Shown here piece by piece: positions 9,034 to 62,663 of a stretch of 64,000 nt of DNA. Below the pieces are notes generated by a model. It had not been told where the DNA came from. It saw nothing but the letters and a program-made list of their open reading frames with translations, and made no database searches. Source of the DNA: Narthecium ossifragum (lineage: Eukaryota > Streptophyta > Magnoliopsida > Dioscoreales > Nartheciaceae); the NCBI GenBank assembly GCA_963920575.1, contig OY986972.1, positions 17,836,502-17,900,501 on the forward strand, written 5' to 3'. Positions within the stretch are counted from its first letter, which is position 1. Each line of letters opens with the position of its first letter. A program made the translations under genes and the position numbers.

Positions 9034-9194
9034 GATCGATCCGACTCTATTAGTGCGATCGATCCTACTCGCCCAGCGACGGGACAATGAACAATAGAAG
9101 GATCGATAGTACTCAGCATGACGGATCGATCCTCCTCGGGACGTAGCGTAACAACATGTGAACGATCGATCGGACTCGATAGGTCCGATCGATC
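9034..9194. repeat. Paired GATCGATC boxes, LTR copy 1
   Basis: Three pairs with 15-nt spacers: 9034-9041 with 9057-9064, 9101-9108 (last base changed) with 9124-9131, and 9164-9171 with 9187-9194. A fourth pair near 9230-9257 is mutated in this copy. Each octamer is a perfect palindrome, so each pair is also an inverted repeat that can form a hairpin. Confidence 0.85.
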
Positions 9195-9320
9195 CCTCTC
9201 GGGGCGTCACCAGCAATTGAAGGAGTCGGATTTATCCTACTCCATAGAAGGTTCGATCCTTTGCAGCCAGAATTAAAGATCAACGGCTCAGATCTAATCC
9301 GTGGGAGATGTTTGCTTAGG

Positions 9321-9330
9321 CTATAAATAG
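9321..9330 (+). promoter_or_regulatory. LTR TATA box
   Basis: CTATAAATAG lies at the same LTR position in all four copies (also 10831, 12340 and 30341), about 110 bp upstream of the leader ORF. It is the likely promoter TATA box for retrotransposon transcription. Confidence 0.65.
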
Positions 9331-10543: not shown

Positions 10544-10768
10544 GATCGATCCGACTCTATTAGTGCGATCGATCCTACTCGCCCAGCGACGGGACAATGA
10601 ACAATAGAAGGATCGATCGTACTCAGCATGACGGATCGATCCTCCTCGGGACGTAGCGTAACAACATGTGAACGATCGATCGGACTCGATAGGTCTGATC
10701 GATCCCTCTCGGGGCGTCACCAGCAATTGAAGGATTCGGATCGATCCTACTCCATAGAAGGTTCGATC
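10544..10768. repeat. Paired GATCGATC boxes, LTR copy 2
   Basis: Four consecutive pairs. The first three octamer pairs are spaced by 15 nt and the fourth (10739-10746 with 10761-10768) by 14 nt. The first pair extends to 12-bp arms (GTAGGATCGATC and its complement), so it could form a stable stem-loop. Confidence 0.85.
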
Positions 10769-11886: not shown

Positions 11887-13400
11887 TATAAGACTTGAAA
11901 AGTCAACAAAACACCCTTGTAATTTGGCTTTGTTGGTCTCCGAGCAACGCTTTACTGACTACTTTTATCCCATTTCAAGTATAACAGCATCTAATAGGAG
12001 TTAGATCAACTTTGGAGCTAAAAGAACGTATTTTGGCAATTTTGGCAAGTAGGATCGATCCGACTCTACAAGTGCGATTGATCCTACTCGCCCAGTGACG
12101 GGACAATGAACAATTGAAGAATCGATAGTACTCAACATGACGGATCGATCCTCCTCGGGACGTAGCGTAACAACATGTGAACGATCAATCGGACTCGATA
12201 GGTCCGATCGATCCCTCTCTGGGCGTCACCAGCAATTGAAGGAGTCGGATCGATCCTACTCTATAGAAGTTTCGATCCTTTGTGGCCATAATTAAAGATC
12301 AACGGCTCAGATCTAATCCGTGGGAGATGTTAGCTTAGGCTATAAATAGTCAATGTTTAGGGATTTTTGGGGGCTTTTTCCCGACGTTTTTGGGGAGAGT
12401 TTTCCTATCTTTTTCTACACTTTTCTTCGGCGATTCTTTGGAGGAGATCCATGGTGGGAGGAGATCATCAACTTCCACCGATGGATCGAACCTTAAAGAT
12501 GAGTAGTTCAAACCATAACCATGAGATTCTTATGATGTAACTAGGGTTTTTCCTAAGGATTTCTTAGATCTAGGGCTTGTATGTACTCTTGTTTAGTTTA
12601 TATGAATTGCTTCCTATTTTCTTTATATCTTGGTGTTGATTTCTTGCTGGATATATGGATTATCCTGGTTTGCACTTGATTCTAGAGATTGTGTATGCTA
12701 GGGCTTGGATTGGATTCATCCAAATAAGAGAATCATGCTAGTCCCATGATATATCAAATAGAATCTTGTTCGTGATTAGGGATTGTATAGTGCTAGTCCC
12801 ACTATAGTAGTGCTACTCCCACTACGTTCCATCCCTAATCCTTCATGCATCTTACCTTTGTAGTTTCGGCCATCGAGATGCGAAGTCATCTCGATTGTAC
12901 ACCTAAATCCATATCCATGCTATTATTTACGATGAACTCATCCTAATAAGAGGGTTCATTAGCAGTGAACGTAACTAATCATTCAGTCACTGATAATTAG
13001 ATAATTGTTCTTGCCGACAAGGAATCCTAAACAGAACTTGTTGAGTGATAAGGAGAACTAGCCATTCACTTATCAATTTTTAGGAAGCCATTCATCGTGT
13101 TTGCATGCCCTGATCTTAGGAAGACTTTGTAAAACCTTAGTTATTGATTAAGAATCATGTGGTCCTTTTTCTCATATTCATAAATCTTTTAGTATAAATT
13201 TAGTTAATTTCAACCCGTAATCTTTTCTCAACTCATTAGTAAGAAATTTGCTAAGTGTTCGATCTCAATCACTTGAATCCCTGTGGACTCGACTCGGACT
13301 CTCCACTATCTACTATTTCTTAGTAGTTAAAGTAGAACATCGGAATTTATTCTAATTTTGGTTAGACTTGTTAAGCCGCGACACTTTTCAAGTTCTATCA
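11887..13400 (+). mobile_element. Athila-type 5' LTR (tandem copy 3, adjoins internal region)
   Basis: The third copy is the functional-position 5' LTR. It ends ...CAAGTTCTATCA at 13400 and is followed by the primer binding site. It starts at the fused junction, not at an intact TGATAAG. Its paired boxes are at 12053-12277, its TATA box at 12340 and its leader ORF at 12451-12540, the last extended by loss of the early stop. Confidence 0.9.
12053..12277. repeat. Paired GATCGATC boxes, LTR copy 3
   Basis: The same four-pair layout with some decay. 12053-12060 pairs with GATTGATC at 12076-12083 (15-nt spacer), and 12248-12255 pairs with a mutated partner at 12270-12277 (14-nt spacer). Spacing is kept although individual octamers have mutated. 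Confidence 0.8.
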
Positions 13401-19747: not shown

Positions 19748-20349
19748 GATCGATCCGTCCTCACAAGGTAGGATCGATCCTCCTTTGCTTCACGCATATT
19801 TTTCATTGGGCATTAGTCGGATCGATCCCACCTACCCCCATGGATCGATCCGAGGTGGGTTTTTAAATTTGACAGAATGTTGTGTTTTCTTCACTACACC
19901 TTCCGATCGATCCATCTATCCCTCCGTCTAAACTCTACTCCGTAAGGTAGTCGGATCGATCATGCCATGGGAGAGCGATCTATCCTACTTGTTCATTTAA
20001 TCGTGACCGAACGTAGTGTATTTTGCACTACACCTTCCGATCGATCCATCTATCCCTCCAGTAATAATAGAACATCTAAGGTAGTAGGATCGATCCCTCC
20101 TCCAACGTGGGATCGATCCTAGGTGGCTATTTATTGGTGACAGAACGTGGTGTTTTGGACGAGTCACCTACCGATCGATCCGTCTATCCATCCTTCTCAA
20201 TGAGTCTAGTCGAGTAAGTCGGATCGATCTTTATCGATCTTTCTAAATTAGCTCGATCGATCGGGCCTGTTTATTCACTTTTTCATTCGATCGCACCCGA
20301 TGCGTCCACGTGGCGACGGATCGATCCGACCGGTCTAGACCGATCGATC
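19748..20349. repeat. Internal array of paired GATCGATC boxes
   Basis: At least four pairs have 15-nt spacers (starting 19820, 19954, 20088 and 20319) and one has 16 nt (19748). Single boxes at 19905, 20039 and 20173 are exactly 134 bp apart and mark an imperfect 134-bp tandem repeat. The array resumes past the nested insertion at 26383-26413 (15-nt spacer) and 26451-26486. 19501-19747 holds only T-rich noncoding sequence. Confidence 0.8.
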
Positions 20350-20378: not shown

Positions 20379-21831
20379 GTTTTGCTGATTGCTCACAAAC
20401 GTCGTCGTTAAAACGTATGCAAAACGCAATTTAGAAATTTGTAAACCTTTCTTTCAACACTAAATTAATAAGATAGAATAATAGTGAAATACGGGGTCGA
20501 TCAGCAGGGAAAACGTTGGAAATCAAAATCAATTCTCAAAACCCTAAAACTAAGTAAAAGGATCAAAGATAGGATAGAGTTATCTAAACTAATAAAGAAA
20601 AGAAATAAAATGTTGATCAATTTGAATCAATGGATAGGTGACTTACGTATTACACAATCCGCCCTAGTTTCATCTTCAATCTTCTCTAGTTATCCTCTTG
20701 TTCCCTTCTCTAAACATTATGAATCCACAGCTTCTTAAGCTTACATGAATCCCTAAAATAAGGTTTATGTTTTCAACGGCATAATCTATCTTTGTTTAGC
20801 ATAAATCATCTTTGGTCCTACGATTACATTAAATTATTCTACTCCTAATGACCTTAGCATGACTTATCTTCACGTAGCATAGACTATCTCAAAGGTAAAC
20901 CAAAAACCACATGAAAACCATCCTATGAATCTCTACAATCAATCACAGAAATCATGTAGGACTGAAAATACATCAAGAAACTCTGTTCCCTCAACTCTAT
21001 TAATAATAAAAAGCAAATTCATAGGATCATGTCTTGAGAAGAATACAAGATTCAAACCAAAGAAGATAGAAAACTATGCTAGGGTTTCATGAATAATCCT
21101 GAGTACAATAACTAGCAACTCATCTTTTGGATGAAAGCCATCGGGTTGGAATAGGAAGCTGTCACCATCCACATCCTCTCCTTCTTCTTCTTCCTCCTCC
21201 AAAGATTGACAAAAAGATGAGAAGTTTTGCTGGAATAACCCCTTTATATAATAAAAACCCTTAATCCCGGAATTAGGGTTATGGCTAAGTTGAGTTGGAC
21301 CTCAAGTGCAACTCGGATTTCCTGGTTCAACCCTGACATCTCATTCCAATCGCTACTGGGTTCAACCGGTCCAGAATTTGAGAATGAGTCCAACACGAAA
21401 GATGTATATTTGGACGTCTTCTGTCCTTTCCCGAAGAGTTTACAATATTTGGACTTATCTAGAATATTTGGCGAATATTCTCCTGGGAGTCGACGGACCA
21501 GTCTTCGAGCAGCTAAATATCTTCATCTTCTTCAAAACTGCTATCCATCCATCAGGAATCTCTGAAAGTGTCCAACATGAAAGTTGTACGTCTTGATGTC
21601 TACTAGATTTCACCCAAATTTCAGAATATTTGAACATAAGAATAATTTCTGATGAATATTGTGCTAACAGTCGACAGAGCAGTGTATTTCAGCATATTAA
21701 CCGAATTTCTTGCATTTCTTCTCAAAGCATGATTAAACCTGAAATCAACTAACAAGCTATCAAATACAACTACTCTAGGCATAACAAAGCTAAGTTAAGG
21801 GGTTGAATCAGGAACATTTAGTGGCTTATCA
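20379..21831 (-). mobile_element. 3' LTR of the nested antisense element
   Basis: Read on the minus strand, the LTR starts TGATAAGCCACTAAATG at 21831 and runs to about 20379. It has a TATA-like TATTATATAAA at 21253-21243. The terminal bases at 20379 do not form a canonical CA end. The boundary rests on the GTTGC duplication, so it is approximate. Its first 544 bp repeat at 25815-26357. Confidence 0.7.
21112..21168 (-). CDS. LTR leader micro-ORF, 18 codons (nested element)
   Basis: Downstream of the TATA-like box the minus strand opens an 18-residue frame, MVTASYSNPMAFIQKMSC. An internal Met lies eight codons before a KMSC ending. The position and the ..PM....KMS. pattern match the 19-codon frame in the larger element's LTR, although the DNA is diverged. 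Whether it is translated is unknown. Confidence 0.3.
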   Translation of the reverse strand: MVTASYSNPMAFIQKMSC

Positions 21832-21845
21832 CACCCCCAACTTAC
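21832..21845 (-). promoter_or_regulatory. Polypurine tract of the nested element
   Basis: On the minus strand AAGTTGGGGGTG directly precedes the LTR start TGATAAG. It matches the AAGTTGGAGGGTG tract of the outer element (29874-29886). It would prime plus-strand DNA synthesis. Confidence 0.7.
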
Positions 21846-22380
21846 ACTTTGCTAGTCCTCGAGCAAAGAAAAGATAAAAAGAGAGAAATAAAACTAACTA
21901 GCCACTTTCGTAGGTCTCACGATTGCACTTAGCATGTGCAACAAGCCTTTAAACCCCTGAGTTACCCCAGTAGAGGAGTTATAGTCTCCAGAGGGTTTTC
22001 AGGGATGACACCGACAAACATCTATACGTTCATTTGAATATACCATTAGAAATCAATCACAATATTCATCAACTCTAATGCATGTAATAGAACTAATATC
22101 CATAAATATACCCTTTAACTCATAGTCACATAAAAACATAGTAAATCAAAACATGTCATAACATATTTCCAATACTTTAACATATTTAATCATGACTAAA
22201 AATAACTTTAACACTCCTGTGTGTGAATGGGGTTCCACATGCTTCAGAGCATCAATTATATCTAAACACTTCAATTATTCAAGATCACAATCATATTCAA
22301 GCACATATTTTCCACTTATCACATAACAATCTCTGGTTTTTTATTTCATTTTTCTTTTCATTTTTTTTCATGCAGGAATT

Positions 22381-22526
22381 TCAACTGTTTTACGCGAACA
22401 ACACACCTTGTTAGGCACATTGCCCGGTTACTAAGTATGAAACCCTTATTTTTTTCTTTTTTTCCAGGAAATTCAACCGTTTTACGCGAACACCACGCTG
22501 GTTAGGCACACTGCCCGGTTACTAAG
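22381..22526 (-). repeat. Duplicated noncoding motif before the 3' LTR (nested element)
   Basis: Two copies (22381-22436 and 22472-22526) of a block of about 55 bp, containing on the minus strand ACTTAGTAACCGGGCA and AAACGGTTGAA, each followed by a homopolymer-rich stretch. The same two-copy arrangement occurs at 29187-29330 in the outer element, about 550 bp before the LTR in both. 22540-23590 otherwise holds AT-rich noncoding sequence, part of it matching 28740-29180 inverted. Confidence 0.65.
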
Positions 22527-23597
22527 TTGAAAATCCTTTTTTTTCTTTTTTTTCACATACTCAGATAATTGCATGTGTTCATGTATTTTCTGCGTCATGA
22601 TATAGAATTATAAATCTATCCCAGTACCATGCTCAGAATCTAATATCAACCCCTTAACATTTGGAAGTGAACATGTGCATTAGGATATGTCAAGCTATCC
22701 TTAGATCATGGTAAAAGTGTTAAAGTATAGAAATAAGATCATGCATAACAAAATTTACTATCCCTTATAAGACATACAAATCTCAGAATAATTCATAAGA
22801 TAAATTTCTAAAACATGCACCTTTGTCAAATTATATCATAATTTCATTCTTTTGACATAATTCAAGGGATGTATAATATTTGGTTACCAGAAAAATAATA
22901 AGTATGAATTCCTAGAATTCTACCCCCCAACTTAAATGTAATCGTCCCCAATTACCCTAAGTAATAAAATTAAATCAAGGAATAAAGGGTAGAGATAACC
23001 ATAATGAACGCTACAAAAATAAATTTCTCTCTCTTTCGATTTAAGTTTAGGTACCGCCATCATTGAATAAATATTTCCTTCCCACCATAACCTGTCACAG
23101 AAATATATACCTTTCCAAAAAGATCAAATATAACAAATAAAAGTCCATAAAGGTATTAGAATCATCGAAAATTTCGGTAGAGTCACCTTTGTATTTTCAT
23201 GATATATTAATCTGTACAAACATTCATCACATAAAAATAAAAATGCACAGGCAAAAGTAAAGGATATACCATCCTCATCATCATCCCATATCAACACAGC
23301 ATCAGGCATGAATAATGATCAACACCCAAAACTTCCAAAAAAAAAAAAAATTTCCACAATAGTACTAATTTTCAGTAGAGTCCCTAAGATCAAGCGGTCG
23401 AGTGGAAGTTGAGGGGTAAGCATGCAAAGACTACGCAATCCTAACAAAGCCATGACGAACCTCGGCCATAAGTCATCAAGTCATAGAGTCATCTACTACT
23501 ATAAGTGCAAAAATCAACCTCGAGAAAGGTCCGGACTGACTCGGGTCGTCGAACACTACATCGCAGACAACTCGTAAACTTCGATCATGTGTCATTC

Positions 23598-24272
23598 CTA
23601 AAGACTACTAATCCTAGGACTCAATGAAAATAGTAGGCAACAAGCTGGGATGTAGTAGATGAGATGTGGGTAGTCTGGAGTACTTGAGTGTGGTCCTGAT
23701 TGAAAATCTAAACCATCGGATGCAAAATCGGAGCGTTCTACTACGTGGATCATGACTGCAGGCAATCGGATGGCTGAAAACATGCCGGCGGCAGATCGAC
23801 GGTGAAACCTCGTCGCCGGAGGACAGGGAAGGTATAGGAAGAATCGTGGTGGCCTAAGGAGTCCTTCGATGTAGTCTGATCGAAGAATTGGGGCTTCTAG
23901 GCGGCGGATTCGAGATGGCCGGCGCGGTGAGTTCGTCGGAGTTGGATTCCAATGATCCGGGCTGTAATTGAGGTAGAGGATGGTGGAGGGAGGATCGTGA
24001 TAACCTAAAAAAGGTTTAAGTGGTGATTCAGGGCTGCGGGAGGTCGTGGAATGGAGGAATGATGTTGGCCGGTCGAGTGGAAGATTGCCGGAGTTGAAGT
24101 CCGGTGATCCAGGCAGCAAAGAATCGTTTTGATGGTGGAGGAGGCTTCGTGGTGGCCGGAGAAAGGTTCTGGAGGTATTACACGGCGGTGGGCGGCCATG
24201 GATAAGGAGATCAGCGGCGGCGGAGAAAACAGGGGAGCTCACCGGCGTCGGAGGAGAGGGTATCGATGGCAA
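23598..24272 (-). CDS. GC-rich ORF of unknown function in the nested element
   Basis: A 224-codon minus-strand open frame, rich in Pro, Ser and Arg, in the GC-rich part of the nested element between the post-pol motif and the duplicated motif pair. No domain is recognised. It sits where the outer element carries its extra ORF, but I see no clear sequence match. It could be a decayed extra ORF, a captured host 5' exon, or chance openness in GC-rich DNA. Confidence 0.25.
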   Translation of the reverse strand: MPSIPSPPTPVSSPVFSAAADLLIHGRPPPCNTSRTFLRPPRSLLHHQNDSLLPGSPDFNSGNLPLDRPTSFLHSTTSRSPESPLKPFLGYHDPPSTILYLNYSPDHWNPTPTNSPRRPSRIRRLEAPILRSDYIEGLLRPPRFFLYLPCPPATRFHRRSAAGMFSAIRLPAVMIHVVERSDFASDGLDFQSGPHSSTPDYPHLIYYIPACCLLFSLSPRISSL

Positions 24273-24544
24273 AGAAGGTCATGGGAGGATAGGGGGAAGG
24301 ATGGCGAAGGTGTTGGTGGTGATTTGTAGGTAAAGCAGGGCCCAGACTGTGGATAATGGCGGCGGCGGCCGTCGGCTCGGGGACGAGCAGGAGGTCGGGG
24401 ATGATGAACAGTAGGGGGAGAGAGAATAGTCCAAAAGAAAATACGGAATAATAGGACAAAGGGAAAAAATTGTGGAAAAATTCGGAAAAAAATAAAGGAA
24501 AACTCCTAAAAATCACAAAAAATCATAAAAATTAATAGAAACTC

Positions 24545-24600
24545 TTAAGAACTGGGTTGCCTCCCAGCAAGCGCGTAATTTTACGTCTTTTGCTAGATGC
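24545..24600 (-). other. Conserved post-pol motif of the nested element
   Basis: The minus strand reads AAAGACGTAAAATTACGCGC then TTGCTGGGAGGCAACCCAG, equivalent to 19445-19490 of the outer element. It survives although pol itself has been deleted. That fits retention of a cis-acting element. Confidence 0.6.
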
Positions 24601-24686
24601 TCCCGAAACAAGATTTAGGAGGCCGATGGTTCCATATGAAGAAATACATGACCCGAAGGATAGTGAAGGTATGCAGACATGATTCA

Positions 24687-25838
24687 TCAAAGAATAAAAA
24701 AGAAGTCATTATCAAACAAAATATGCATAGAATTGGAAATTTTGATACGATCTTTGAGGAATGGACGATAGGAATTGGCATGGTCTTCACTCACAACAAG
24801 GTTCTCCTCGTCACAAAGTTCAACTAATGGGGATGATATTAAAGATAGAATCTCAACATGAGGCTCTAGAGAAGGAATATTGCTAACACCCTCATCCTCA
24901 TTATGTTTATTACTAATATGCATATCAACATCATTCAACTCATCATGTAGAAGTTCAACTTGAGGTTCCTGACAGAGGGTTTCACTATTATGCTCAGCCT
25001 CATTATCATCATTGTAAATAGATATATTATCATCATTCAACTCATCATAAATAAGTTCAACTTGAGGTTCCTGACAGGGGGTTTCACTAATATGCTCATC
25101 CTCATTATGATCATTGTAAATAGACATATTATCATCATTCAACTCATCATGAACAACCGGCGATTTAGCATAACAACTCTCATCATCGCTATCATCAACA
25201 TCATCAACTGTATCATCAAAAGTTGGGAAAATCGTATTTTCAGCAGCTTCCAAAACATTATCAATAACATCATGAACTGGCAAAACATCACAAGCATTAT
25301 AGCATGCATCAACATCATTAGAAACATAAGCATCACAAGCATTGCCATAACAAATAGAAGGAACATAATCATCATCTGAATCCACCATACAAGCTAGTTG
25401 TCCGCTTTGTATCTCTAAATTCTTAATTGATTGAGCGTTAGAGTTAACATTAGTCCCTATCAAAGAAATTATGCTCCTAAGCTCAGTCGTCATGTCATTC
25501 ATGTTAGCAATGATGTTTGCATTCATGTTTTGAAGTGCACTCATGATTGTGCTCAAAGTTGGTTCAGAGGGTGTTTGTGGGGGAGGATATTGTTGTTCAA
25601 AACAAGGTTTAAAATTTTGAGCCGGTGTTTCTGTGTTCCATGATTGAACATTAGGAGGTTGGTAACCTTGAAATTGCCAACTAGGGTATGTATGATTTCT
25701 AAAATTCGGATTATAATGATATGAATGTGAATTATATGTCGGATTAGAGAAACCATATGTGTCATTATTGTAAGCGGGTCCATAGCCAAAAGGCAAATCA
25801 TCATTGGACTTGGCAGTTGAGTTGGACCTCAAGTGCAA
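24687..25838 (-). pseudogene. Gag C-terminal remnant with acidic repeats
   Basis: A 383-codon minus-strand ORF. Residues 1-8 are read from LTR sequence fused to gag. Next comes an Asn/Tyr/Pro-rich tail and a LEIQSGQLA segment like the EAQLGQLANALS segment in the outer element's gag. After about residue 210 there are roughly three 34-residue acidic repeats (DELNDDN.SIYND.NE.EH.SET.CQEPQVEL). The capsid core and zinc knuckle are missing. A functional Gag is unlikely. Confidence 0.6.
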
Positions 25839-26357
25839 CTCGGATTTCCTGGTTCAACCCTGACAGCTCATTCCAATCGCTACTGGGTTCAACCGGTCCA
25901 GAATTTGAGAATGATTCCAACACGAAAGATGTAGATTTGGAAGTCTTCTGTCCTCTTCCGAAGAGTTTACAATATTTGGACTTAGCTAGAATATTTGGAG
26001 AATATTCTCCTGGGCGTCGACGGACCAGTCTTCCAGCAGCTAAATATCTTCATCTTCTTCAAAACTGCTATCCATCCATCAGGAATCTCTGAAGTGTCCA
26101 ACATGAAAGTTGTACGTCTTGATGTCTACTAGATTTCATCAAAATTTCAGAACATTTGGACATAAGAATAATTTCTGATGAATATTGTGCTAACAGTCGA
26201 CAGAGTAGTGTATTTCAGCATATTAACCGAATTTCTTGCATTTCTTCTCAAAGCATGATTAAACCTGAAATCAACTAACAAGCTATCAATTACAACTACT
26301 CTAGGCATAAAAAAGCTAAGTTAAGGGGTTGAATCATGTACATTTAGTAGCTTATCA
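25815..26357 (-). mobile_element. Truncated 5' LTR (U3 only) of the nested element
   Basis: 543 bp that match 21288-21831 closely, starting TGATAAG at 26357 on the minus strand and stopping before the TATA box. It is fused at 25815 to gag sequence. The duplication GTTGC follows at 26358-26362. Confidence 0.85.
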
Positions 26358-26729
26358 GTTGCGACGCTGCCATGTGGACCTCGATCGATCCCTCTCCACA
26401 GGATGGATCGATCCGAGTCGTGTTATTTCGGGGTTTAAAGTCAGGGGGCCAATCGATCCTAGGGCATTCATATCCTACGATCGATCCACCACCCCCGTTC
26501 TGTTTCGCTCAGTCGCCGTCACCCTTCGTTCACACCTCCGACCGGTGCTCGGCCTCGTCTCCGGCAAGACCTCCTCACCCCCGTCCTCTACCGCACTCTA
26601 TTACCTTCCTTCAACCCTCTTCCCCACTCACGACCTCGCCGTTTTCCTCCAAATCCATTCAAACCCTTAACGCGGGTTCTTACTCCCTGTCGAGCATCGC
26701 CGGCGCCGTTCCTTGCCTCCCACCCCATC

Positions 26730-29886: not shown

Positions 29887-30053
29887 TGATAAGACTTGAA
29901 AAGTGCACAAAACACCATTGTAATTTGGCTTTGTTGGTCTCCGAGCAACGCTTCACTGACTATTTTTATCCCATTTCAGGTATAACAGCGCCTAATAGGA
30001 GTTAGATCAACTTTAGAGCTAGAAGAACGTATTTTCGCAATTCTGGCGAGTAG

Positions 30054-30278
30054 GATCAATCTGACTCTACAAGTACGATCGATCCTACTCGCCCAGCGAT
30101 GGGACAATGAACAATTGAAGGATCGATCATACTCAGCATGACGGATCGATCCTCCTCGGGACGTAGCGTAACAACATGTGAACGATCGATCGGCCTCGAT
30201 AGGTCCGATCGATCCCTCTCGGGGCGTCACTAGCAATTGAAGGAGTCGGATCGATCCTACTCCATAGAAGGATCGATC
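30054..30278. repeat. Paired GATCGATC boxes, 3' LTR
   Basis: Four pairs with spacers of 15, 15, 15 and 14 nt: 30054/30077, 30121/30144, 30184/30207 and 30249/30271. Seven of the eight octamers are perfect; the first reads GATCAATC. Confidence 0.9.
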
Positions 30279-30452
30279 CTTTGCGGCCAGAATTAAAAAT
30301 CAATGACTCAGATCTAATCCGTGGGAGATGTTTGCTTAGGCTATAAATAGTCAATGTTTAGGGATTTTTATTGGGCCTTTTCCAGACGTTTTTTAGGAGA
30401 GTTTTCCTATCTTTTTCTACACTTTTCTTCGACGCTTCTTTAGAGGAGATCC

Positions 30453-30512
30453 ATGGCGGGAGGAGATCATCAACTTCCACCGATGGATCGACCCCTAAAG
30501 ATGAGTAGCTAA
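30453..30512 (+). CDS. LTR leader micro-ORF, 19 codons (3' LTR)
   Basis: Same 19 residues and length as the copy at 10942, ending at TAA in ATGAGTAGCTAA. It is about 100 bp downstream of the TATA box. Confidence 0.35.
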   Translation: MAGGDHQLPPMDRPLKMSS

Positions 30513-31402
30513 AACCCTAACCATGGGATTCTTATGATGTAACTAGGGTTTTTACTAAGGATTTCTTAGATTTAGGGCTTGTATACACTCTTGTTTGGTT
30601 TATATGGATTGCTTCTTATTTTCTTTATATCCTAGTGTTGATTTCTTGCTGGATGTATAGATTGTTCGTGTTTGCACTTGATTCTAGAGCTTGTTTATGC
30701 TAGGCCTTGGATTGAATTCATCCAAATAAGAGGATCATCCTAGTCCCATGATATCTCGGATAGAATCTTCTTCGTGATTAGGGATTGTATAGTGCTAGTC
30801 CCACTATAGTAGTGCTAGTCCCACTACGTTCCATCCCTAATCCTTCATGCATCTTACCTTTGTAGTTTTGGCCATCGAGATGCGAAGTCATCTCGATTGT
30901 ACACCTAAATCCATATCCATGTTATTATTTGCGATGAACTCATCCTAATTAGAGGGTTCATTTGCAGTGAACGTAACTAATCATTCGGTCACTGATAATT
31001 AGATAATTGTTCTTGCCAACAAGAAATCCTAAACATAACTTGTTGAGTGATAAGGAGAACTAGCTATTCACTTATCAATTTTTAGGAAGCCATTCATCGT
31101 GTTTGCATGTCCTGATCTTAGGAAGACTTGGTAAAACATTAGTTATTGGTTAAGAATCCTGTGGTCCTTTCTCTCATATTCATAAATCTCTTAGTATAAA
31201 TTTAGTTAATTTCAACCCGTAATCTTTTCTCAACTTATTAGTAAGAAATTTGCTAAGTGTTCGATCTCAATCACTTGAATCCTTGTGGACTCGACTCGGA
31301 CTCTCCACTATCTACTATTTCTTAGTAGTTAAAGTAGAGCACCGGAATTTATTGTAATTTTGGTTAGACTTGTTAAGTCGCGACACTTTTCAACTTCTAT
31401 CA

Positions 31403-34171: not shown

Positions 34172-36640
34172 TGTGAGGACTTGTCCCTCTCTTCCGGTAG
34201 CTCGTTGTTAACCACAAGGGCAATTTGGTAAATTGCTCCTTGTCGGTTAGTTACTCACCCGTGTGCACACACAGCCTCTGATTGATGATTGTGTTTGACT
34301 AGATCCAGCTAGGTCTTGGATCGATCCGACTTAGTCTTAGATCGATCCGGATACTGTAGCATGTCGGCGTCTTTCTTCCTTGAGAGGACGGCCGTCGTGG
34401 CCGTCGTGGCCGTTGCTCTTCGCTGTCAGGGGAGAGAAGACTTTCTCTCCTCTGCCCCCCCCTTTTCCCCTCCTTCCCCGACTTTCCCCCTTTCCTTTTC
34501 CTTCCTCTTCCTCCTCTTCTCCTTCTCTGCTGCTTCCTTCTTCTTCCTCCTCTTCTCCTTCTCTACTGCTTCCTTCTTCTTTCTTCTTCTTCCGTGAGCT
34601 CTGCTTCCCCTATTCCGGCTGAACCTTCTTCTCCACCGTTCTCCCTCCTCCGGCCACCATTTTGAGCGTTTGAAGGCTCGTTGGAACCGTGGTGGCATGA
34701 GGAAGATCTCTGGTGTGGTTTGAAGCTCTGTTGGTGACCGGTTTGCGGGAAATCTGCCGAGGATTGCGTTTCTGGTAGGTGTTCTACCAACGTGAGTTGT
34801 TTTATGGGTTTCTCTTAATCTAGCCGTTTGATCTTGCTGTTCTTTGTGTTATTGGCTTCCTCTTGCTTAGTATAATTTCTGGTTTAAGTTTCATAAGCTT
34901 TGGTTGAGATTTTAATAGGATTTAAGGATGTTAAAGCTTGAATTTGTTCTGGTTTTGCTGTTCCTGAAGAAGAGCCAAATTAAGGCTCATTTTTCGGTCA
35001 ATACAAGCATGATATTGACCTATGATGAACATAAGAGTTGTAGATCTCTGCGTTATCTTTCCATTCCAGCTTATGTCGTACTTTTCCGATTTTTCTACAA
35101 ATTGTAGTGATTTGTCTCTTGGCCTGCGACGAGACTTATCTGAAGCTGGTATGAAGCCTGTTTGGATCGATCCAATATTTTCTGGATCGATCCAAATGTT
35201 TCGGATCGCTCCCAAGCCTGACTGATGGTGTTTTATGGACTATTTTTAGTGGTTTTGATTAGCATTTTTCCCGGTAATCAAGCTGTTGGATGTGTTTGGA
35301 TCTTGGATCGATCCCGGTTGCACCCAAGATGGTCTGTTCACTGAGGGCAAGTCGGATCGATCCATGGGTATGTTTGGATCGATCCAGTGTTTCCCAGGAA
35401 CAGTGTCTGAGGGTAGCAGAGAATGACTTTCTTGGTTTTTCCAAGTTGGATTGATCCGAGTGTGTTGGATCGATCCAACGTACACCAGAATTCGGATTTG
35501 GTGGTTTTGCCCGCGGGGCTCGCCATGATAGTTTAGTGATATTGCTATAAACTGTTGTTTGTTACCGCTTTGTGGTTGAACCGGGAGTGTGATGACTCCC
35601 GGGATTGTGTAGAATAAATGGGCTAGTGGTATGCCCTTTATCGCTTTGTGGTTAACCGAGGGAGTCATGAACCTCGGGAATGTGTAGAATAAATGGGCTG
35701 GCTGTATGCCCTTTATCGCTTTGTGGTTAACCGAGGGAGTCATGAACCTCGGGAATGTGTAGAATAAATGGGCTGGTAGTATGCCCTTTATCGCTTTGTG
35801 GTTAACCGAGGGAGCCATGAACCTCGGGAATGTTTAGTATAAACGTGCCGAAGGTATGCTATTGATTGTTGCTTGCTTATACTGTTGCATGCATTGTTGA
35901 TTGTGCATTAGAGGCCTAGGGTTTGATTGTAGTGTTGTTAGTCTGTTATTTGAGGTCGGGTTAGCTCTTTTGCTTGGAGTACTGAGAGTTGGTTGTCATA
36001 ACCACGGTTGTTCCGCCAAGTGTGGTGATCCCGCTTGGAGAGGGGTGTCCTACTGGTATCGTCAAGTCCACCCTATGTCAGGAATGTCGGAGAATGTCCA
36101 CCCATGAAAAGTGGCTGTCGAAAGACGTACTTTAGACAGGTACCCTTCGGGTTATTGACGGGATTTATGGGGTCCTTGGTAGGCCTCAGTACATGGCACA
36201 GAGTTAGTTCAGTTGTAGTTTCCCCTTCCTTATGTGTGTCGTAGAGTAGAACCCTACTGAGCTTAGTTCTCACTCCTACCCGGGCGGCGTTTGCAGGTGC
36301 AGGTACCAGCTCTCCTTCGGTGGGCCCCAGTTGCTCGTCCTGTGGTAGTACGACGACATCAGGGCATGTTTGAGGGCCAAGATGGCTTCTGCTGTGCCTT
36401 CCGGGAGACCTCTGTTGATGTAACATTTTTGAGTTTTATAACATCTTTTTTACATGAGGACTGGTTTATGTAAATCTTAATGTAACTCTGTTGTATGTAC
36501 AGTTTTGTAATACTAATTCTTAGATTTACTTCTGTCCTCTATTTGTTGTAACTGTTTCCGCCAGTTAGATGTTAGTAGATGTAGGAACCCCCCCTCGTGT
36601 CCCGGTCCGGATGGGTTTTCCGGGCCGAGGCGCGACAACA
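34172..36640 (+). mobile_element. Long LTR-like unit 2, nested in unit 1
   Basis: It starts TGTGAGGACTTG and ends GAGGCGCGACAACA, about 2.47 kb. It shares the head and tail blocks of unit 1 but is diverged. Paired GATCGATC-type boxes lie at 34319-34347, 35165-35211, 35355-35384 and 35449-35475 with spacers of 11-14 nt. A 75-bp tandem repeat lies at 35563-35860. No target duplication is visible, so simple insertion is not proven. Confidence 0.5.
35563..35860. repeat. 75-bp tandem repeat, about four units
   Basis: Units begin TATCGCTTTGTGGTTAACC at 35639, 35714 and 35789, with a diverged first unit from about 35563. Because 75 is a multiple of three, it produces a repetitive minus-strand open frame that is not a gene. 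Each unit contains an inverted repeat around CCGAGGGAGTCATGAACCTCGG. Confidence 0.85.
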
Positions 36641-36727: not shown

Positions 36728-37182
36728 TGTAATGGTCCTAGCATCACAAGACTCTTAATCTCGAGAAGAAAATCCTCACATCCATGGTTTTAGCATGAAT
36801 GTTTTGATGTGAATCTCTAATCTCAAGTCCTAACATGCCTAGATCTAGACATAAAGGAACAAATCATTCATCCACTAATAATAAAATTATACCAAGTTCA
36901 TAAAGAAATTAAGATTAATCCATACAAACCATTCAAAGAGGTATACAAGCCCTAAATCTTAGGAATCCCTAATAGAAATCCTAGTTATATCATAAGAATC
37001 CCATGGCGAGGAGGTTAGCTATTCATCTTGAGGGTTTGATCCATAGATGAAGGTTGATGAAGCTCTTCCGCCATGGATTTCCTCCCAAAAGATTCTAAAA
37101 AAAAAAGTTAAAAAGAGGAAAAAGAAATTAAGAAAGAGTGCTCCCTCTGCTTGGCCTTCAAGTAGCCAAGAGAAAGAGTCTA
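36728..37182 (-). mobile_element. Relict antisense LTR, fragment 2
   Basis: Continuation of the antisense LTR from 31782. On the minus strand it shows GAAATCCATGGCGGAAGAG, a leader micro-ORF (37074-37015), then CCATGGGATTCTTATGATATAAC and TAGGGCTTGTATAC, all matching the Athila-type LTR in order. Interrupted again at 37182. Confidence 0.7.
37015..37074 (-). CDS. LTR leader micro-ORF, 19 codons (relict LTR)
   Basis: MAEELHQPSSMDQTLKMNS, the same length, internal Met position and KM(S/N)S ending as in the intact LTR, although about half the residues differ. Frame and stop are preserved despite the decay around it. Confidence 0.35.
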   Translation of the reverse strand: MAEELHQPSSMDQTLKMNS

Positions 37183-39429
37183 TATGAGGACCCGTCCCTC
37201 TACTCCTGTGGCTCGTCGTGGACCGCAAGGGTAATTTGGTAAATTGCGCCTTGTCGGCTTGTTTCACACCCGCGTGTGCACACACTGACCGTGTTTGTGG
37301 TAATGTTTGGTTAGAACGGCTAGTGGGACCCGGGATCGAAAGATCTGGACTTAGGCTTGTGTTCTTGCCTAAGTTTAGCATTCAGCACGAAAAGGATCGA
37401 TCTTCTCTAGCTAAGAGATCGATTTTCTTGTGCCAGAAAGTCAAGTGCGATCGTCATGAAGGATCGATCTTTGCCTAGGGGAAGATCGATCATTCATAAG
37501 TCGGTTCGTTTGCCTATAAAGTAGACGAGACTTTCTTCCTTGAATCCCTTTTGAAATTCGGAGATCTGAGCTCATATCTTGCGATTTTTGAAGGCGTTTG
37601 AGGAGGTTCCAAGGCCTAGCTACTTGGATTTAAGCTGCTCTTGCTCCTGTAGGGATTCCTACCTACATCTTTTTCGGGTTTTTGGAGTTTCCAGTTTGAT
37701 TGTGTTCTTTGGCTTAGATCTGTAGATACACATGTTGGTTTTACGTGATTTAACCGGTTTTGGACTCGTGGGATCTTGATCTATCAGATCCCAGAGTTTG
37801 GTTGTGTTTGGATGTATCTTCCGGCGGTATTCCTCGCCGGAAGGGCGCCGGAGAACCCATCCGGATCGATGCTTCTTGACCCTCTGGGTTGGTCATGCTG
37901 CGCCCGATGAAGGATCGATCCTCTACTTGGAGAAGATCGATCCTGGGTCTTGGGTAGCATGGTTACCCTTCGTTGCGAAGAAGATCGATCTTCCTGGGAG
38001 GAAGGATCGATCTTTCTTGGTGCGACATGAAGGGCACCCTCTGTCTCGAGAAAGATCGATCTTCCTGGGAGGAAAGATTGATCTTCTTTGGCTCGACAGT
38101 GAGGGAAGCTCACTGTTACTTAAAAGATCGATCTTTTCTTAGAAAAAGATCGATCCTTTAGTAGCAGAGAGGATTTTTTCATGACCTTTACCCGCGGGGC
38201 TTGGTATGTCAGTTTTCTTTGCCGTTTTATACCTTGTACATATGTTTAAGCATGTTAGCCCTATAATAGGGTAGTGGTGAACCGGGGGAGTGATGACTCC
38301 CGGGATGTTTAGAATAAACGGGCGGGTAGCCCTACAGCTTTCCCTAGCCTTGCATGCCGGCGTGTGCCGAGGGCTTTACCTGTTATATATGTGAGCTGTT
38401 GTTTGCGGGGCTGCGTCCCGGTGCAGGTTTTGTGGTGGACTGCTGGCAGTTGGTGGTGGTACCACTGCAGCAGTCCCTAGACCTTATCTATCTGTTCACC
38501 ACCCCGGGCCGGCAGGGTGCCGTGCCCAAACCTTGTCTTTGTATATCATCACATACTGTTGCATGTTTATCTGTATTATCCTGCGCATGTTCATACATGC
38601 ATTGTGTTGTGCATTAGTTGCATCTGTGTAGGGCGTTGCCGATCCAGGGTTTTCGGGTAGCCCGGATCTAGCTCTAGGACCGTTGCGGGTAGCTTGGTCC
38701 AGGACACGATTTGTAGTATTCAGTCGTTCTCGATGATAGGGTTAGATGACCTGAATACATGTTGTTTGATGTTTAGAGGTCGTGTCTGCCTTGAGCCAGA
38801 TGTTGTGGGAGCAACCGGTGTCGGTTCTTGTCTTTGGGGGCCGTCGGAGGAGTCCAGCCCAGGCAGTGTCTGTTCCTGCCCGCACTAGGTGTATCCAGGA
38901 TGGGCCTAGTCCCTTGGGGTGACCATGGTTGGGTATGCCTAGAGACACCAGCAAAGGGTTATGAGACCCTTGCTGCATACCCAAGTCTTGCTTGAGAGCG
39001 ACACTGTTGTGTTCCCTCCCTTGTGATGTCGTAGTGTAGTGTCCATGCTGAGCTTAGTGCTCACTCCTACTCGGGCTGCGTTTTGCAGGTGCTGGCGCTA
39101 ACTCTTCTTCGGTCGCCCCTACCGGGCCGGTGTTTGGTGACGTGGCGGCGTCTGGCGGTGCTTGAGAGGTGGCGATCTTACAGTTTTATACCTTTTTGTT
39201 ATAGATAGTCTACTACGGGAGTGATAAATGTATAATTTCCCTGTTTGAGGATTTGTAATATTATATCAGTTCAGTCTTCGAGATATGTATTTGTGTTAAT
39301 ACAGGATGTTTAAGAATTGTTAGGGTAACCACTATGATTACAGGGAAACCTCGCCAAAATTTCCGCAGTAGGTTAGGTTCCGCTTCGCGTCGCTGGCCCG
39401 GTTGGGCCTACGCGGGTCGGGGCGCAACA
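37183..39429 (+). mobile_element. Long LTR-like unit 3 (solo LTR)
   Basis: 2247 bp flanked by GTCTA at 37178-37182 and 39430-39434. The first bases are TATGAGGACCCG (probably TG mutated), and it ends GGTCGGGGCGCAACA. It shares the GGTAATTTGGTAAATTGC head and the CTCCTACTCGG...GCAGGT tail with units 1 and 2. There is no internal coding region, so it behaves as a solo LTR. It carries six paired GATCGATC boxes. Confidence 0.65.
37395..38155. repeat. Six paired GATCGATC boxes, 14-nt spacers
   Basis: Pairs at 37395/37417, 37462/37484, 37913/37935, 37983/38005, 38054/38076 and 38126/38148. In all six the spacer is exactly 14 nt. Ten of twelve octamers are perfect (the others are GATCGATT and GATTGATC). 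Flanks and spacers differ between pairs; only the boxes and the spacing are constant. Confidence 0.9.
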
Positions 39430-39434
39430 GTCTA

Positions 39435-53151: not shown

Positions 53152-56100
53152 AATACTCACTTAGGTATCCTCCTTTCCAAAAGAGAATCCTGACAACCTA
53201 CTCAGGAAAATTATTCATAAAGAGAAAAGAGAAAAATGCAAACAAGCATAGCACTACATACTATTTCATACTTATTCTCTTTTTCCAAAAGAGAATACTG
53301 ACATACATTGATGTATATGAATAGAAAACAGAGTTGCGAGAAGACCTAATCATCATTTATAGGTATTCTCTTTTTCGAAAGAGAATACTGCCAAATGTAT
53401 GCAAGAAAATATGAAATAAAGAGAAAAGAGAAAAAATGCAAACAACAAGCATAGCACTACATCCTATTTCATACTCATTCTCTTTTGAAACTTATTCTCT
53501 TTTTTCAAATGAAAATACTGACATACATTGATGTATATGAATGTAAAATAGAGTTGCGAGAATACCAAATCATCTTTTATAGGTATTCTCTTTTTCGAAA
53601 GAGAATACTGCCAATTGTATGCATGAAAATATGTCGTAAAGAGAAAAGAGAAAAAATGCAAACAATAAGCATAGCACTACATCCTATTTCATACTTATTC
53701 TCTTTTTCCAAAAGATAACACTCACATACATTGATATATATGAATGGAAAACGGAGTTGTGAGAATACCAAATCATCTTTTATAGGTTTTCTCTTTTTCG
53801 AAAGAGAATACTGCCAAATGTATGCATGAAAATATTTCATAAAGAGAAAAGGAGAAAAATGCAAACAACAAGCATAGCACTACATCCTATTTCATAGTTA
53901 TTCTCTTTTGAAACTTATTCTCTTTTTTCAAATAAGAATACTGACTTACATTGATGTATATGAATGGAAAATAGAGTTGCGAGAATACCAAATCATCTTT
54001 TATAGGTATTCTCTTTTTCGAAAGAGAATACTGCCAAATGTATGCATGAACATATGTTATAAAGAGAAAAGAGAAAAAAATTCAAACAACAAGCATAGCA
54101 CTACATCCTATTTCATACTTATTCTCTTTTTTCAAAAGAGAACATTCGCATACATTGATGTATATGAATGGAAAACAGAATTGCGAGAATACCAAATCAT
54201 CTTTTATAGGTTTTCTCTTTTTTGAAAGAGAATACTGCCAAATATATACATGAAAATATTTCATAAAGAGAAAAGGAGAAAAATGCAAACAACAAGCATA
54301 GCACTACATCCTATTTCATACTTATTCTCTTTGTCCAAAGAGAATACTGACATACATTGGTGTATATGAATTGAAAACAGAGTTGTGAGAATACCAAATC
54401 ATCTTTTATAGGTTTTCACTTTTTCGAAAGAGAATATTGTCAAATGTATGCATGAAAATATTTCATAAAGAGAAAAGAGAAAAAATGCAAACAACAAGCA
54501 TAGCACTATATCCTATTTCATACTTATTCTCTTTTTCCAAAAGAGAACATTCGCATACATTGATGTATATGAATGGAAAACAGAATTGCGAGAATACCAA
54601 ATCATCTTTTATAGGTTTTCTCTTTTTCGAAAGAGAATACTGCCAAATATATACATGAAAATATTTCATAAAGAGAAAAGGAGAAAAATGCAAACAACAA
54701 GCATAGCACTACATCCTATTTCATAGTTATTCTCTTTTTCCAAAGAGAATACTGACATATATTGATATATATGAATGGAAAACAAAGTTACGAGATTACC
54801 AAATCATCTTTTATAGGTTTTCTCTTTTTCGAAAGAGAATATTGCCAAATGTATGCATGAAAATATTTCATAAAGAGAAAAGGTGGAAAATGCAAACAAC
54901 AAGCATAGCACTACATCCTATTTCATAGTTATTCTCTTTTTTCAAAGAGAATACTGACATACATTGATGTATATGAATGAAAAACTCTTGAGGAGAATAC
55001 TCACTTAGGTATCCTCTTTTGCAAAAGAGAATCCTGACAACCTACTATGTAAAATTTTCATAAAGTGAAAATAGAAAAATGCAAGCAACAAGCATAGCAC
55101 TACATCCTATTTCATACTTATTCTCTTTTTCCAAAAGAGAATACTGTCATAAATTGATGTATATGAATGGAAAACAAAGTTGCGAGAATGCCTAATCATC
55201 TTTTATAGGTATTCTCTTTTTCGAAAGAGAATATTGCCAAATGTATGCATGAAAATATGTCATAAAGAGAAAAGAGAAAAAATGCAAACAACAAGCATAG
55301 CACTACATCCTATTCCATACTTATTCTCTTTTGGAACTTATTCTCTTTTTCCAAAAGAGAATACTGACATACATTGATGTATATGAATGGAAAACAGAGT
55401 TGCGAGAATACCAAATCATCTTTTATAGGTATTCTCTTTTTCGAAAGAGAATACTGCCAAATGTAAGCATGAAAATATGTCATAAAGGGCAAAGAGAAAA
55501 AATGCAAACAACAAGGATAGCACTACATCCTATTTCATACTTATTATCTTTTTTCAAAAGAGAACACTAACATACATTGATGTATATGATTGGAAAACAG
55601 AGTTGCGAGAATACCAAATCATCTTTTATATGTTTTCTCTTTTTCGAAAGAGAAAACTGCCAAATGTATGCATGAAAATATTTCATAAAGAGAAAAGGGG
55701 AAAAATGCAAACAACAAGCATAGCACTACATCCTTTATCATAGTTATTCTTTTTTTCCAAACAGAATACTGACATACATTGATGTTTATGAATGGAAAAC
55801 AAAGTTGCGAGATTACCAAATCATCTTTTATAGGTTTTCTCTTTTTCGAAAGAGTATATTGCCAAATGTATGCATGAAAATATTTCATAAAGAGAAAAGG
55901 GAAAAATGCAAACAACAAGCATAGCACTACATCCTATTTCATAGTTATTCTCTTTTTCCAAATAGAATACTGACATACATTGATGTATATGAATGAAAAA
56001 GTCTTGAGGAGAATACTCACTTAGATATCCTCTTTTCCAAAAGAGAATCCTGACAACATACTCAAGAAAATTATTCATAAAGAGAAAATAAAAAAATGCA

Positions 56101-56200
56101 AACAACAAGAATAGCACTAGATATTATTTCATACTTATTCTCCTTTTTCAAAAGAGAATACTGCCAAATCTATGCGTGAAAAATATTTCATAAAGAGAAA
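53152..56200. repeat. Dimeric hairpin-bearing satellite, about 203-bp unit
   Basis: GCAAACAACAAGCATAGCAC recurs at 202-203-bp steps (53658, 53861, 54284, 54487, 54690, 54892...), with 220-221-bp steps where an extra 18 bp containing TTATTCTCTTTTG is present. Each unit has two related halves. One carries ATTCTCTTT-TTCG-AAAGAGAAT (9-bp arms), the other ATTCTCTTTT-TCC-AAAAGAGAAT (10-bp arms). About 14 units. Variant units with GAGGAGAATACTCACTTAG lie at the 53152 junction, about 54990 and about 56005. Short ORFs along it are repeats of the same decoy peptide. Confidence 0.9.
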
Positions 56201-57740: not shown

Positions 57741-58244
57741 TGTTGGAGAAATTGGAAGACGTCGGAGAAAGGAAAGAGGGTCTGAAGCGGATTGATAGAA
57801 CTTCGAGGCACGTTACGGATGTTGCTACCCTTAAGGGTTGATTCCCCCCACCAGATTGGTAGTACAACGGGTCTCCGGCGAATCTCCTTTAGGATACAAC
57901 GAGGTTCTCACTTTCCTGCGTTAGTACCGACGAAGGAAAGTCTGTAGGACACTGTTAAATTTTTGGCAGAAGATTTGAGAAGGTTTTTGGAGAAAGATCC
58001 AGTAAAAACAACCATGGTACGTATGAGTTTATATAGAGCAAAAGATGAAAAGAAGCGATTGTTTAGAAAAAATGCAACCGCTCGCGGCGTATGTCGCGTC
58101 CGTTCGGAAACGCGAAACGCGAAAAGTCGCATGTCGCGTCCGTTCGGAAACGCGAAAAGTTGCGTATGTTTGGAACGGTTCTGAACAGACGCGATGATGC
58201 ATTTTGAAAAGTCAATGAAGCTTTATTTTGAAAAGTCTCTGACA
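57741..58244 (-). mobile_element. Copia 3' LTR
   Basis: 504 bp with TG...CA ends (TGTTGGAG... and ...CTCTGACA on the plus strand). Contains AACGCGAAA/GTCGCATGTCGCGTCC repeats. Confidence 0.95.
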
Positions 58245-58258
58245 ATCCCCCACCATTT
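58245..58258 (-). promoter_or_regulatory. Copia polypurine tract
   Basis: On the minus strand AAATGGTGGGGGAT directly precedes the 3' LTR. It is the plus-strand primer of reverse transcription. 58259-58795 is noncoding 3' sequence with no other feature. Confidence 0.8.
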
Positions 58259-58795
58259 TCAAAATAAAATAAAATAAATTTTGAAAAAGATCATATATTC
58301 TGCCAAGTAAGTCATTTGCATAAATAAAGGTGTCTTGCGACTTGAACCTCTATATAGTAGAAGCATTACAAAATTGACTAGAAGATCCCAGTGGATAGTA
58401 CCTTGAACTTTGAACTCATATTGTCAATCGGTTCTGCTCCACGCAAACTCCTTCAATTATTTCAGTATCCAAACCGCTAGTTGACACCATTATGGCCATG
58501 TGTCTCATATCCTTTCATTAATGCTTAGAGTTAAAGTCCCTTAAACTCTTAGAAGCGGCCCCACTTCTGCATTAATATAGGTGAATCAAACAGTGTTCCC
58601 AGAAACAAACACTTGGACTTAAGATTTCTTGACTCATTAAGAGCATTAGCTCACCTTCACTGTAAGCACTTATGGTACCAAACATCTTATCCTTGGGATG
58701 AAATTTATGTGATGTTTGCATTAATTAGCATGATGTACTATCACTCATTGAACTCAAAACATGAAGTTTTCATGAGTTAAGTTGAGGTTCCATCA

Positions 58796-61700: not shown

Positions 61701-62663
61701 TACAGCACCGTTCCATCGCTGCTAGGCTCCAAAGTCTTAAACAGGCTTTTATTGTTGCAGATGTGCCTAGTTGCCCCAGAATCTATCCACCAAGAGGTGT
61801 TGTCTTCGAGTACATTAGTCTCGAAGATCATGGCTGCGAAATTGTCTTTATTTTCATTGCCTCCCTCTTTCTTTTTGCGGGACCGACAATCTCGCTTAAA
61901 ATGCTCAGGCTTACCGCAGTAGTAGCAGTTACCTTTCATCCTCTTGTTATTCTGGCCCTTTTCTTTGCTGAATTGATTGGAACGCTTCTTGTTGGAGGTC
62001 TTACTAGTATTTGAAGTTTCTGCTACAAGCACTTTCGACTTGTCATCCGGTGGTGGATTATTTGCTCCTTCATTTTTCCGATATTCCTCCTCAATTTTGA
62101 CATGATTAAACAAGTCTTCGAGAGAAATATCCTCCTTGCGGTGTTTAAGGCTGCGTTTAACATCCTTCCAGGAAGGGGGCAATTTGTCTATGATGGATGT
62201 CACAACTATTGAATCATCCATATTCATGTTATTTTGCTTAATATGTTGCAAAATACGAGTAAGCTCATACAATTGCTCAGTAACAAGCCTACTATCAACC
62301 ATTTTGTAATTAAAAAATTTACTCACAAGAAACTTTTTGCTCGCAGCATCTTCAATCATGTACTTTTGTTCTAGTGCATCCCAAAGATCTTTTGTTGTTA
62401 TGTGATGCTGATACGCATCGAACAGATCATCAGACATTGAATTCAGCACATGCCCGCGACACATCAGATCGTCATTCTCCCATTTCAGTCTTTGGAGAGT
62501 TGCTTCAATGGTCTCATCATCAGGATTTTCAGGTATTGTCGGCTCTGGTGTAGACAGCACGCACGTACACAATTTTCAGCGTCGCCAATAGTAGATGCAT
62601 ACGCTTTTGCTATCGCTTGAAATTTGTACCATCGAAGCGTTGCAACTTTAGAACATCTCCCAT
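58796..62663 (-). pseudogene. Copia gag-pol polyprotein, nearly intact
   Basis: An ATG at 62663 opens gag (GDVLKLQRFDGTNFKR). A TAG follows at codon 18, and a 4-bp duplication (CACGCACG near 62560) shifts frame. From there one frame runs to 58796 with a single TGA at 60668-60670. In the long ORF from 62572, zinc knuckle CYYCGKPEHFKRDC is at residues 216-229, protease DSGA at 264, and integrase zinc finger at about 391-423. Integrase catalytic residues are D449, D512 and E545. In the second part from 60634, the RT YVDD is at residues 294-297, followed by RNase H ending NLADPLTK. All catalytic motifs are present. Apart from three lesions it could encode a full polyprotein. Confidence 0.9.

Follow-up and report, generated by a model that had tools for sequence, protein, structure and literature searches.

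Paired palindromic boxes ahead of the LTR TATA in several Ty3/gypsy families of Narthecium ossifragum: probable cis-regulatory arrays

The palindromic 8-mer GATCGATC (hereafter, the box) is arranged in pairs on a genome-wide scale in Narthecium ossifragum; in several LTR families the pairs hold a fixed place relative to the TATA box, and they are constrained in the lineages that spread. We propose, with a probability of about 0.8, that these pairs are cis-regulatory arrays bound by one predicted dimeric DNA-binding protein in several Ty3/gypsy families.

Box pairs in the window

The window is the whole 64-kb stretch of DNA that was analysed. It contains 59 exact boxes, compared with a mean of 1.05 and a maximum of 4 in 100 dinucleotide shuffles. 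Unit 3 carries six pairs in which every start-to-start step equals 22, that is, a 14-nt spacer (starts 37395/37417, 37462/37484, 37913/37935, 37983/38005, 38054/38076 and 38126/38148). The first-pass annotation had reported exactly this, and we confirm it with the additions that a single mismatch occurs in two of the 12 boxes (GATCGATT at 37417 and GATTGATC at 38076) and that a further pair has decayed. This seventh pair, of which a remnant stands at 37864, is kept in most of 31 aligned family copies, and its partner box is deleted in unit 3. In these 31 copies the family layout is seven pairs, 14 boxes per LTR, with box steps of 22-46-22-380-21-40-22-48-22-49-22-50-22. The 11-14-nt spacers annotated for unit 2 were likewise recovered, with a one-mismatch box in two of its five pairs. 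The features used below are (window positions):

9034..9258 (+), box array of Athila-type LTR copy a; the last box (one-mismatch) starts 70 nt before the TATA
9321..9330 (+), TATA box of Athila-type LTR copy a, CTATAAATAG; position read off the sequence ruler
10544..10768 (+), box array of Athila-type LTR copy b
12053..12255 (+), box array of Athila-type LTR copy c
19748..20349 (+), 14 exact boxes of the Athila element, between pol and ORFx
26383..26486 (+), three exact boxes upstream of ORFx (ATG about 26730)
30054..30278 (+), box array of Athila-type LTR copy d
34172..36637 (+), unit 2 LTR, TGTGAGGAC...GCGCGACA; flanks ACATG/ACAGG, one mismatch
37178..37182, unit 3 TSD, left, GTCTA
37183..39429 (+), unit 3 solo LTR; LTR ends read directly, GTCTA on both sides
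37395..37424 (+), unit 3 box pair 1, promoter-proximal, -119/-97 from TATA; second box GATCGATT
37462..37491 (+), unit 3 box pair 2, promoter-proximal, -52/-30 from TATA
37514..37520 (+), unit 3 TATA box CTATAAA, 22 nt past the last promoter-proximal box
37864..37871 (+), remnant of the decayed seventh pair of unit 3, GATCGATG
37885..38180 (+), unit 3 downstream array, pairs 3-6, foldable into long hairpins of ~70 nt each
37913..37942 (+), unit 3 box pair 3
37983..38012 (+), unit 3 box pair 4
38054..38083 (+), unit 3 box pair 5; second box GATTGATC
38126..38155 (+), unit 3 box pair 6
39430..39434, unit 3 TSD, right, GTCTA

Box pairs across the genome

Pairs were counted in the 379.4-Mb assembly (150 contigs) with the reversed pattern as control. 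The pattern GATCGATC-N8-18-GATCGATC was found 78,157 times (control 34), and 33,313 of the pairs have exactly N14 (control 3). Randomly placed sequence (20 stretches of 10 kb, 200 kb in total, from contigs 1-10, first 17.5 Mb) contained 126 boxes distributed over 15 of the 20 stretches. In this sample GATCGATC was 44-fold above its first-order Markov expectation and the top over-represented 8-mer among those counted at least 20 times and containing more than two letters.

Host elements and kinship of the LTRs

Unit 3 shows LTR ends and a 5-bp target duplication without an internal region; its LTR starts with TA, and that of unit 2 with TG. At locus L014, two LTR stretches 88-91% like unit 3 lie on either side of a Ty3-type pol with RVP_2, RVT_1, RT_RNaseH and Integrase_H2C2 domains (rve below cut-off); in the C-terminal integrase piece, where a chromodomain was sought, SH3_Tf2-1 was the only domain found. 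Judging from these sequences, unit 3 is a solo LTR of a Ty3/gypsy family, which we take to be a Tekay/Del-like chromovirus. The window's other Ty3/gypsy element, for which an Athila-type gag-pol was found, presumably belongs to the Athila clade. Its RT is 35.6% identical to that of L059 and 35.8% identical to that of L014.

The first-pass annotation had described unit 3 as an unrelated LTR-like unit without other similarity to the Athila-type LTR. The word 'unrelated' was wrong as regards units 2 and 3: they have three colinear blocks of 78-88% identity in common, and we regard them, on this alignment, as related by descent. The lack of other similarity to the Athila LTR holds inside 37183-39429, since the Athila LTR gave no BLAST match at 1e-3 to the unit 2 or unit 3 LTR and the single Athila-LTR match in the cut unit-3 stretch, inverted and 74-80% identical, lies outside the LTR at 36891-37122. 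Alignable flanks across all three, a possibility also raised at that stage, are present between units 2 and 3 and absent for the Athila LTR. Box-masked clustering of 44 arrays, possibly including some beyond LTRs, gave clusters of 17, 9, 5 and 4 and nine singletons at cut-offs (E 1e-6, 60 bp) that deeper kinship may escape; L019 groups with the Athila LTR. The same paired-box design is therefore met in LTRs that failed to align and that come from deeply diverged Ty3/gypsy lineages. Boxes at 1-236 of L059 were at one point regarded as element-internal; this was dropped, as they sit in an insertion within L059's LTR.

Several observations concern the elements themselves. The Athila-type LTRs stand three head to tail with a period of ~1510 bp, followed by the internal region and a fourth LTR at the far end (LTR-LTR-LTR-internal-LTR; window 8888-13402 and 29889-31398). 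An insertion with ~544-bp terminal repeats, 96% identical, occupies 21288-26357 between the element's two internal box clusters, and part of it resembles, inverted, the stretch preceding the Athila 3' LTR. For ORFx, the ORF downstream of the Athila pol and a candidate env, the best Pfam match was PF20167 (E 0.025, below cut-off) and no homologue scored in the search made for it. Elsewhere in the window are a copia element (57741-63218; LTRs 98.2% identical) with zero exact GATCGATC boxes and a satellite with a ~203-bp unit in about 15 copies (53162-56163).

Position of the boxes relative to the TATA box

To relate boxes to promoters, we considered 113 flank sides (at least 60 nt) from 60 groups of at least two exact boxes. 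A TATA-like site within 130 nt of the boxes pointed away from them on 21 of the 113 sides and toward them on 2, whereas 77 of 1,640 random 130-mers contained such a site (Fisher p 2.8e-5 and 3.3e-7 for box flanks); the counts are non-independent, some groups being copies of the same family. Genome-wide, GATCGATC-N40-69-CTATAAATAG occurs at 6,107 places, compared with 0 for the control. Among the first 100 places listed, all on contig 1 and many from the same families, the offset is N61 in 1, N62 in 18, N63 in 54, N64 in 24 and N52 in 3, the last being about one helical turn shorter than N61-64.

The last pair stands at about -93/-71 in Athila-type copies b and d and in L010, L019, L039, L045, L047, L052, L054, L056, L080, L082, L083, L084, L085, L087 and L092 (L080, L082, L083, L084 and L085 are longer stretches taken around L042, L050, L053, L041 and L046). 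The places of boxes before the TATA recur from one array cluster to another. More specifically, boxes lie at -287/-264, -220/-197, -157/-134 and -92/-70 in Athila copy d, at -155/-133 and -93/-71 in L019, at -166/-143 and -93/-70 in L045, at -155/-134 and -93/-72 in L056, at -164/-143 and -93/-72 in L083, and at -155/-133 and -92/-70 in L084. The promoter layout of the unit-3 family differs from that of this group, with pairs at -119/-97 and -52/-30. Given these positions, the boxes look like promoter elements. No recognised TATA follows unit-3 pairs 3-6 or the internal boxes of the Athila element.

This survey covered 34 hand-chosen stretches, 11 of them without a TATA under the first pattern, and a further 15 stretches. 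When the pattern was widened to GATATAAATAG variants, the arrays of the L023/L041/L046/L055 cluster fitted too, as did the L053 place; the TATA sites first assigned to L041 and L055 under the narrow pattern were false. No convincing TATA was seen at the usual distance in L012, L013 (9332-9495), L043 with its wider fetch L081, L044, L048, L051, L086, L088, L089, L093 and L094; some of these arrays are short pieces and some are in downstream LTR parts like unit-3 pairs 3-6.

Over the 62-nt interval from the -71 box to the TATA, seven of nine arrays are 40-69% identical to one another in every ungapped pairwise comparison. The other two, L052 and L054, which have a longer offset, are 27-39% identical to those seven and 100% to each other, and by eye share some of their core sequence. 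The motif AAAAT-AA-GG...GATCTAATCCGAG recurs as a promoter core in this interval in L010, L019, L039, L045 and L056. Because the core is alike between box and TATA, the promoter of the -93/-71 group is likely of common descent; between this group and the Tekay-like elements, descent, transfer or convergence may have been at work.

Gaps between pairs (n=19, a small and non-independent sample) cluster near 40-42 and 48-51, with a best period of 10.3. Intermediate gap values exist and the unit-3 family does not fit, its pair interval being 67-68 nt compared with the ~62- and ~72-nt registers of the other families, so we rejected strict helical phasing; phasing of the modules is suggestive only.

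Constraint on boxes in spreading copies

The expectation that boxes are conserved over their flanks among genome copies was borne out in both families for inherited non-CpG substitutions. In the unit-3 family (31 copies: 30 of 39 other copies scored plus the window's copy; variants present in at least two copies are called inherited), inherited non-CpG variant columns amount to 2/84 in boxes and 143/637 elsewhere (p 8.5e-7); with CpG columns included, the figures are 11/112 and 186/699 (p 4.7e-5). In the L019-like family (21 copies, 20 of them picked by eye from the first box-TATA places listed) they amount to 7/54 in boxes and 150/299 elsewhere (p 1.8e-7), a count that leaves out the last box and the TATA, which are fixed by copy choice (7/60 with them). 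Both tests ignore phylogeny and define boxes on the majority row.

Private non-CpG mutations of the unit-3 family were counted in boxes (24/2581), arms (130/10196) and the remaining sequence (112/9464), and boxes and other positions (242/19660) are alike (p 0.21). Since inherited substitutions avoid the boxes in this family and private ones do not, the data argue for constraint in spreading copies that is undetectable after insertion. In the L019-like family private non-CpG mutations are rarer in boxes (7/1016 vs 86/5758, p 0.040), a difference not expected from constraint on source copies alone. The contrast of inherited with private mutations over dispersed copies provides a simple way of splitting spreading constraint from dead-copy decay.

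CpG sites behave in their own way. In the L019-like family 4/18 CpG columns in boxes and 9/22 elsewhere have shared variants, and the box CpG columns of the unit-3 family hold nine variant sites common to copies; we take such shared box variants to be recurrent deamination. Protection of box CpGs from decay was rejected, as private CpG changes in the unit-3 family stand at 16/860 in boxes and 30/1919 elsewhere; an 11-copy preliminary sample had suggested the opposite, i.e., protection.

Hairpin folding and arm complementarity

The pairs could also be read at the RNA level, with the hairpin as the functional unit: tandem stem-loops of ~50-70 nt in the LTR transcript, the box forming the stem core, that would serve packaging, dimerisation, RNA stability or as substrates for a small-RNA pathway. 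We consider this improbable, although several results speak for it. The array 37885-38180 folds far better than its shuffles (z -9.35 on the + strand and -10.30 on the - strand; 0/200 shuffles as stable on either). Outer and inner arms of 134 non-redundant pairs are complementary beyond between-pair permutation (z 11.5 and 13.2), a signal mostly due to flank patterns common within arrays; under within-array permutation the outer arms retain z 3.6 (p 0.0002) and the inner arms z 2.3 (p 0.014). The flanks and spacers had been annotated as variable, which is true of their sequence and incomplete as a description, since they are partly complementary. Four compensated inherited stem pairs occur among the 31 copies. 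Sirevirus palindromes offer a precedent: the cited parts of PMC5311732 and PMC10760457 describe copia LTR regulatory palindromes with strong predicted structure, which in maize are small-RNA mapping hotspots. The structural feature is the same here; the host element differs.

Other results stand against RNA-level selection. Oriented hairpins (n=61) showed no G.U excess (GT 33 vs AC 27), nor did inherited stem changes (GT 33 vs AC 25 sites; private 26 vs 30; p 0.35). The arms are conserved no more than the remaining LTR sequence in the 31 unit-3-family copies, own outer arms are no better complemented than swapped ones in 8/25 arrays, and hairpins do not predict a fixed TATA distance. Without a G.U excess RNA-level selection is not preferred, in what is a small sample; the data agree better with dyad symmetry at the DNA level (e.g., of a symmetric protein complex) or with template-switch correction at the palindromic boxes. 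Long arm complementarity goes beyond what a binding site by itself needs. The box palindrome was rejected as its sole source: the hairpin partner is modestly better than the palindrome partner (outer 151 vs 122, inner 165 vs 124 of 409; pooled p 0.0036), though the two tied for inner arms in a smaller first set (87 vs 86 of 252), and both layers may exist. None of the arrays had an Rfam match at gathering level. The window's single match lies elsewhere, a snoR71 hit of 43.8 bits (cut-off 40) at 14197-14302 (-), inside the Athila gag ORF and antisense to it.

Proposed mechanism and alternatives

In the mechanism that we favour, palindromic GATCGATC sites would act two per module, ~22 bp (two helical turns) apart, just upstream of the LTR TATA, with a second array downstream in unit 3 and some other LTRs. 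One putative sequence-specific and probably dimeric protein would bind both boxes of a module on one helix face, and the bound protein would activate, or help to de-silence, LTR transcription. Elements losing boxes would stop spreading, so that boxes stay fixed and flanks drift. Action at the DNA level is suggested by the offset to TATA, by a step of two helical turns and by the absence of a G.U excess. Binding, dimerisation, activation and a factor common to all families are what we infer from this arrangement. A design common to non-alignable LTRs, together with box constraint, fits one trans-acting factor; selection by one host factor was among the readings put forward in the first-pass annotation. 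The factor is more likely host-encoded than element-encoded, and GATA factors that bind a GATC core are a candidate, as a lead only.

A target-array system of the VANC type, in which an element-encoded trans factor lifts silencing through tandem target motifs, is unlikely. Its design is parallel, since the short motifs there form repeated arrays outside the coding parts of the element; however, VANC proteins act on particular VANDAL families according to the cited part of PMC10398659, and the boxes extend across several families. We regard it as very unlikely that unrelated elements each acquired a mobile or self-propagating cassette of boxes. In favour of such a cassette are the occurrence of one pair design in LTRs that failed to align, tandem runs at 20-22-nt steps, which point to local duplication, and the lack of the -155/-133 pair in 6/21 L019-like copies (L097, L098, L099, L102, L105 and L106); in five of these six only 37-41 nt separate the next upstream pair from the -93 box, as though an entire ~62-nt module were missing. 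Fixed TATA offsets are nevertheless unexpected for a freely moving cassette, and the promoter core common to the -93/-71 families indicates descent there rather than repeated acquisition. Finally, the box is identical in its 8 bases to the Chicago proximity-ligation junction (PMC5288721, in the part cited), which would make it an assembly artefact. This explanation was rejected and has a negligible chance of being right: boxes occupy the same place, with fixed spacing, in 31 and 21 dispersed copies and a fixed TATA offset in the 21-copy set, a pattern that random junctions would not give.

Returning to regulation by a DNA-binding protein, one could go further and suppose that a single trans-acting regulator controls most Ty3/gypsy retrotransposons here by one promoter grammar, consisting of GATCGATC pairs with a ~22-bp step, modules of ~62 or ~72 bp and a last box at ~-71 or ~-30. 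This is possible and, in our view, doubtful. If true, a single regulator would operate across long-separated lineages, and one protein could switch much retroelement activity. The cis-regulatory reading itself, if true, would supply a sequence-readable rule for the transcription of several abundant retroelement families of this plant, predict effects of spacing, open a way to the factor, whether host- or element-encoded, and extend the Sirevirus RM idea to Ty3/gypsy elements.

Comparison with known systems

No description of GATCGATC arrays in LTRs was found in the literature searched, which covered subscription journals sparsely and mostly at the level of titles. By analogy, the closest counterpart is the RM boxes of Sireviruses. 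As the cited part of Bousios et al. 2010 (PMC2829016) describes them, RM boxes are a short palindrome present many times per LTR shortly upstream of the TATA, near-identical despite divergent flanks and low overall homology between elements; extra copies lie 5' of env in env-containing elements, and that part identifies no common factor. CpG islands border the clusters of RM boxes. Here too there are many palindromic boxes per LTR (14 in the unit-3 family, 10 in the L019-like family) with divergent flanks, placed shortly upstream of the TATA. However, Sireviruses are Ty1/copia elements whose boxes have a CGG-CCG core except in Tnd-1 (ACAATCGATTGT), whereas here a single 8-bp core, GATCGATC, is found in Ty3/gypsy hosts from two deep lineages. 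Because core and host superfamily differ, we regard the present boxes as a parallel to the RM boxes and not as a member. They also differ in forming ~22-bp pairs with partly complementary arms. As to extra boxes 5' of env, the Athila element carries boxes at 19748-20349 and 26383-26486 between pol and ORFx, an ORF that might be env.

VANC targets in VANDAL elements (PMC10398659, in the part cited) are similar as arrays of short motifs in non-coding element regions, where they recruit a trans factor; unlike here, where the factor is a prediction, the motifs differ between elements and the proteins are known and element-encoded. Outside retroelements, GATCGATC is a predicted rice cis-element (PMC6918188, PMC8207140): in the cited parts of these studies the same 8-mer stands in host-gene promoters, without LTR arrays or pairing, and the former mentions GATC-core binding by GATA12/GNC/GNL in connection with it.
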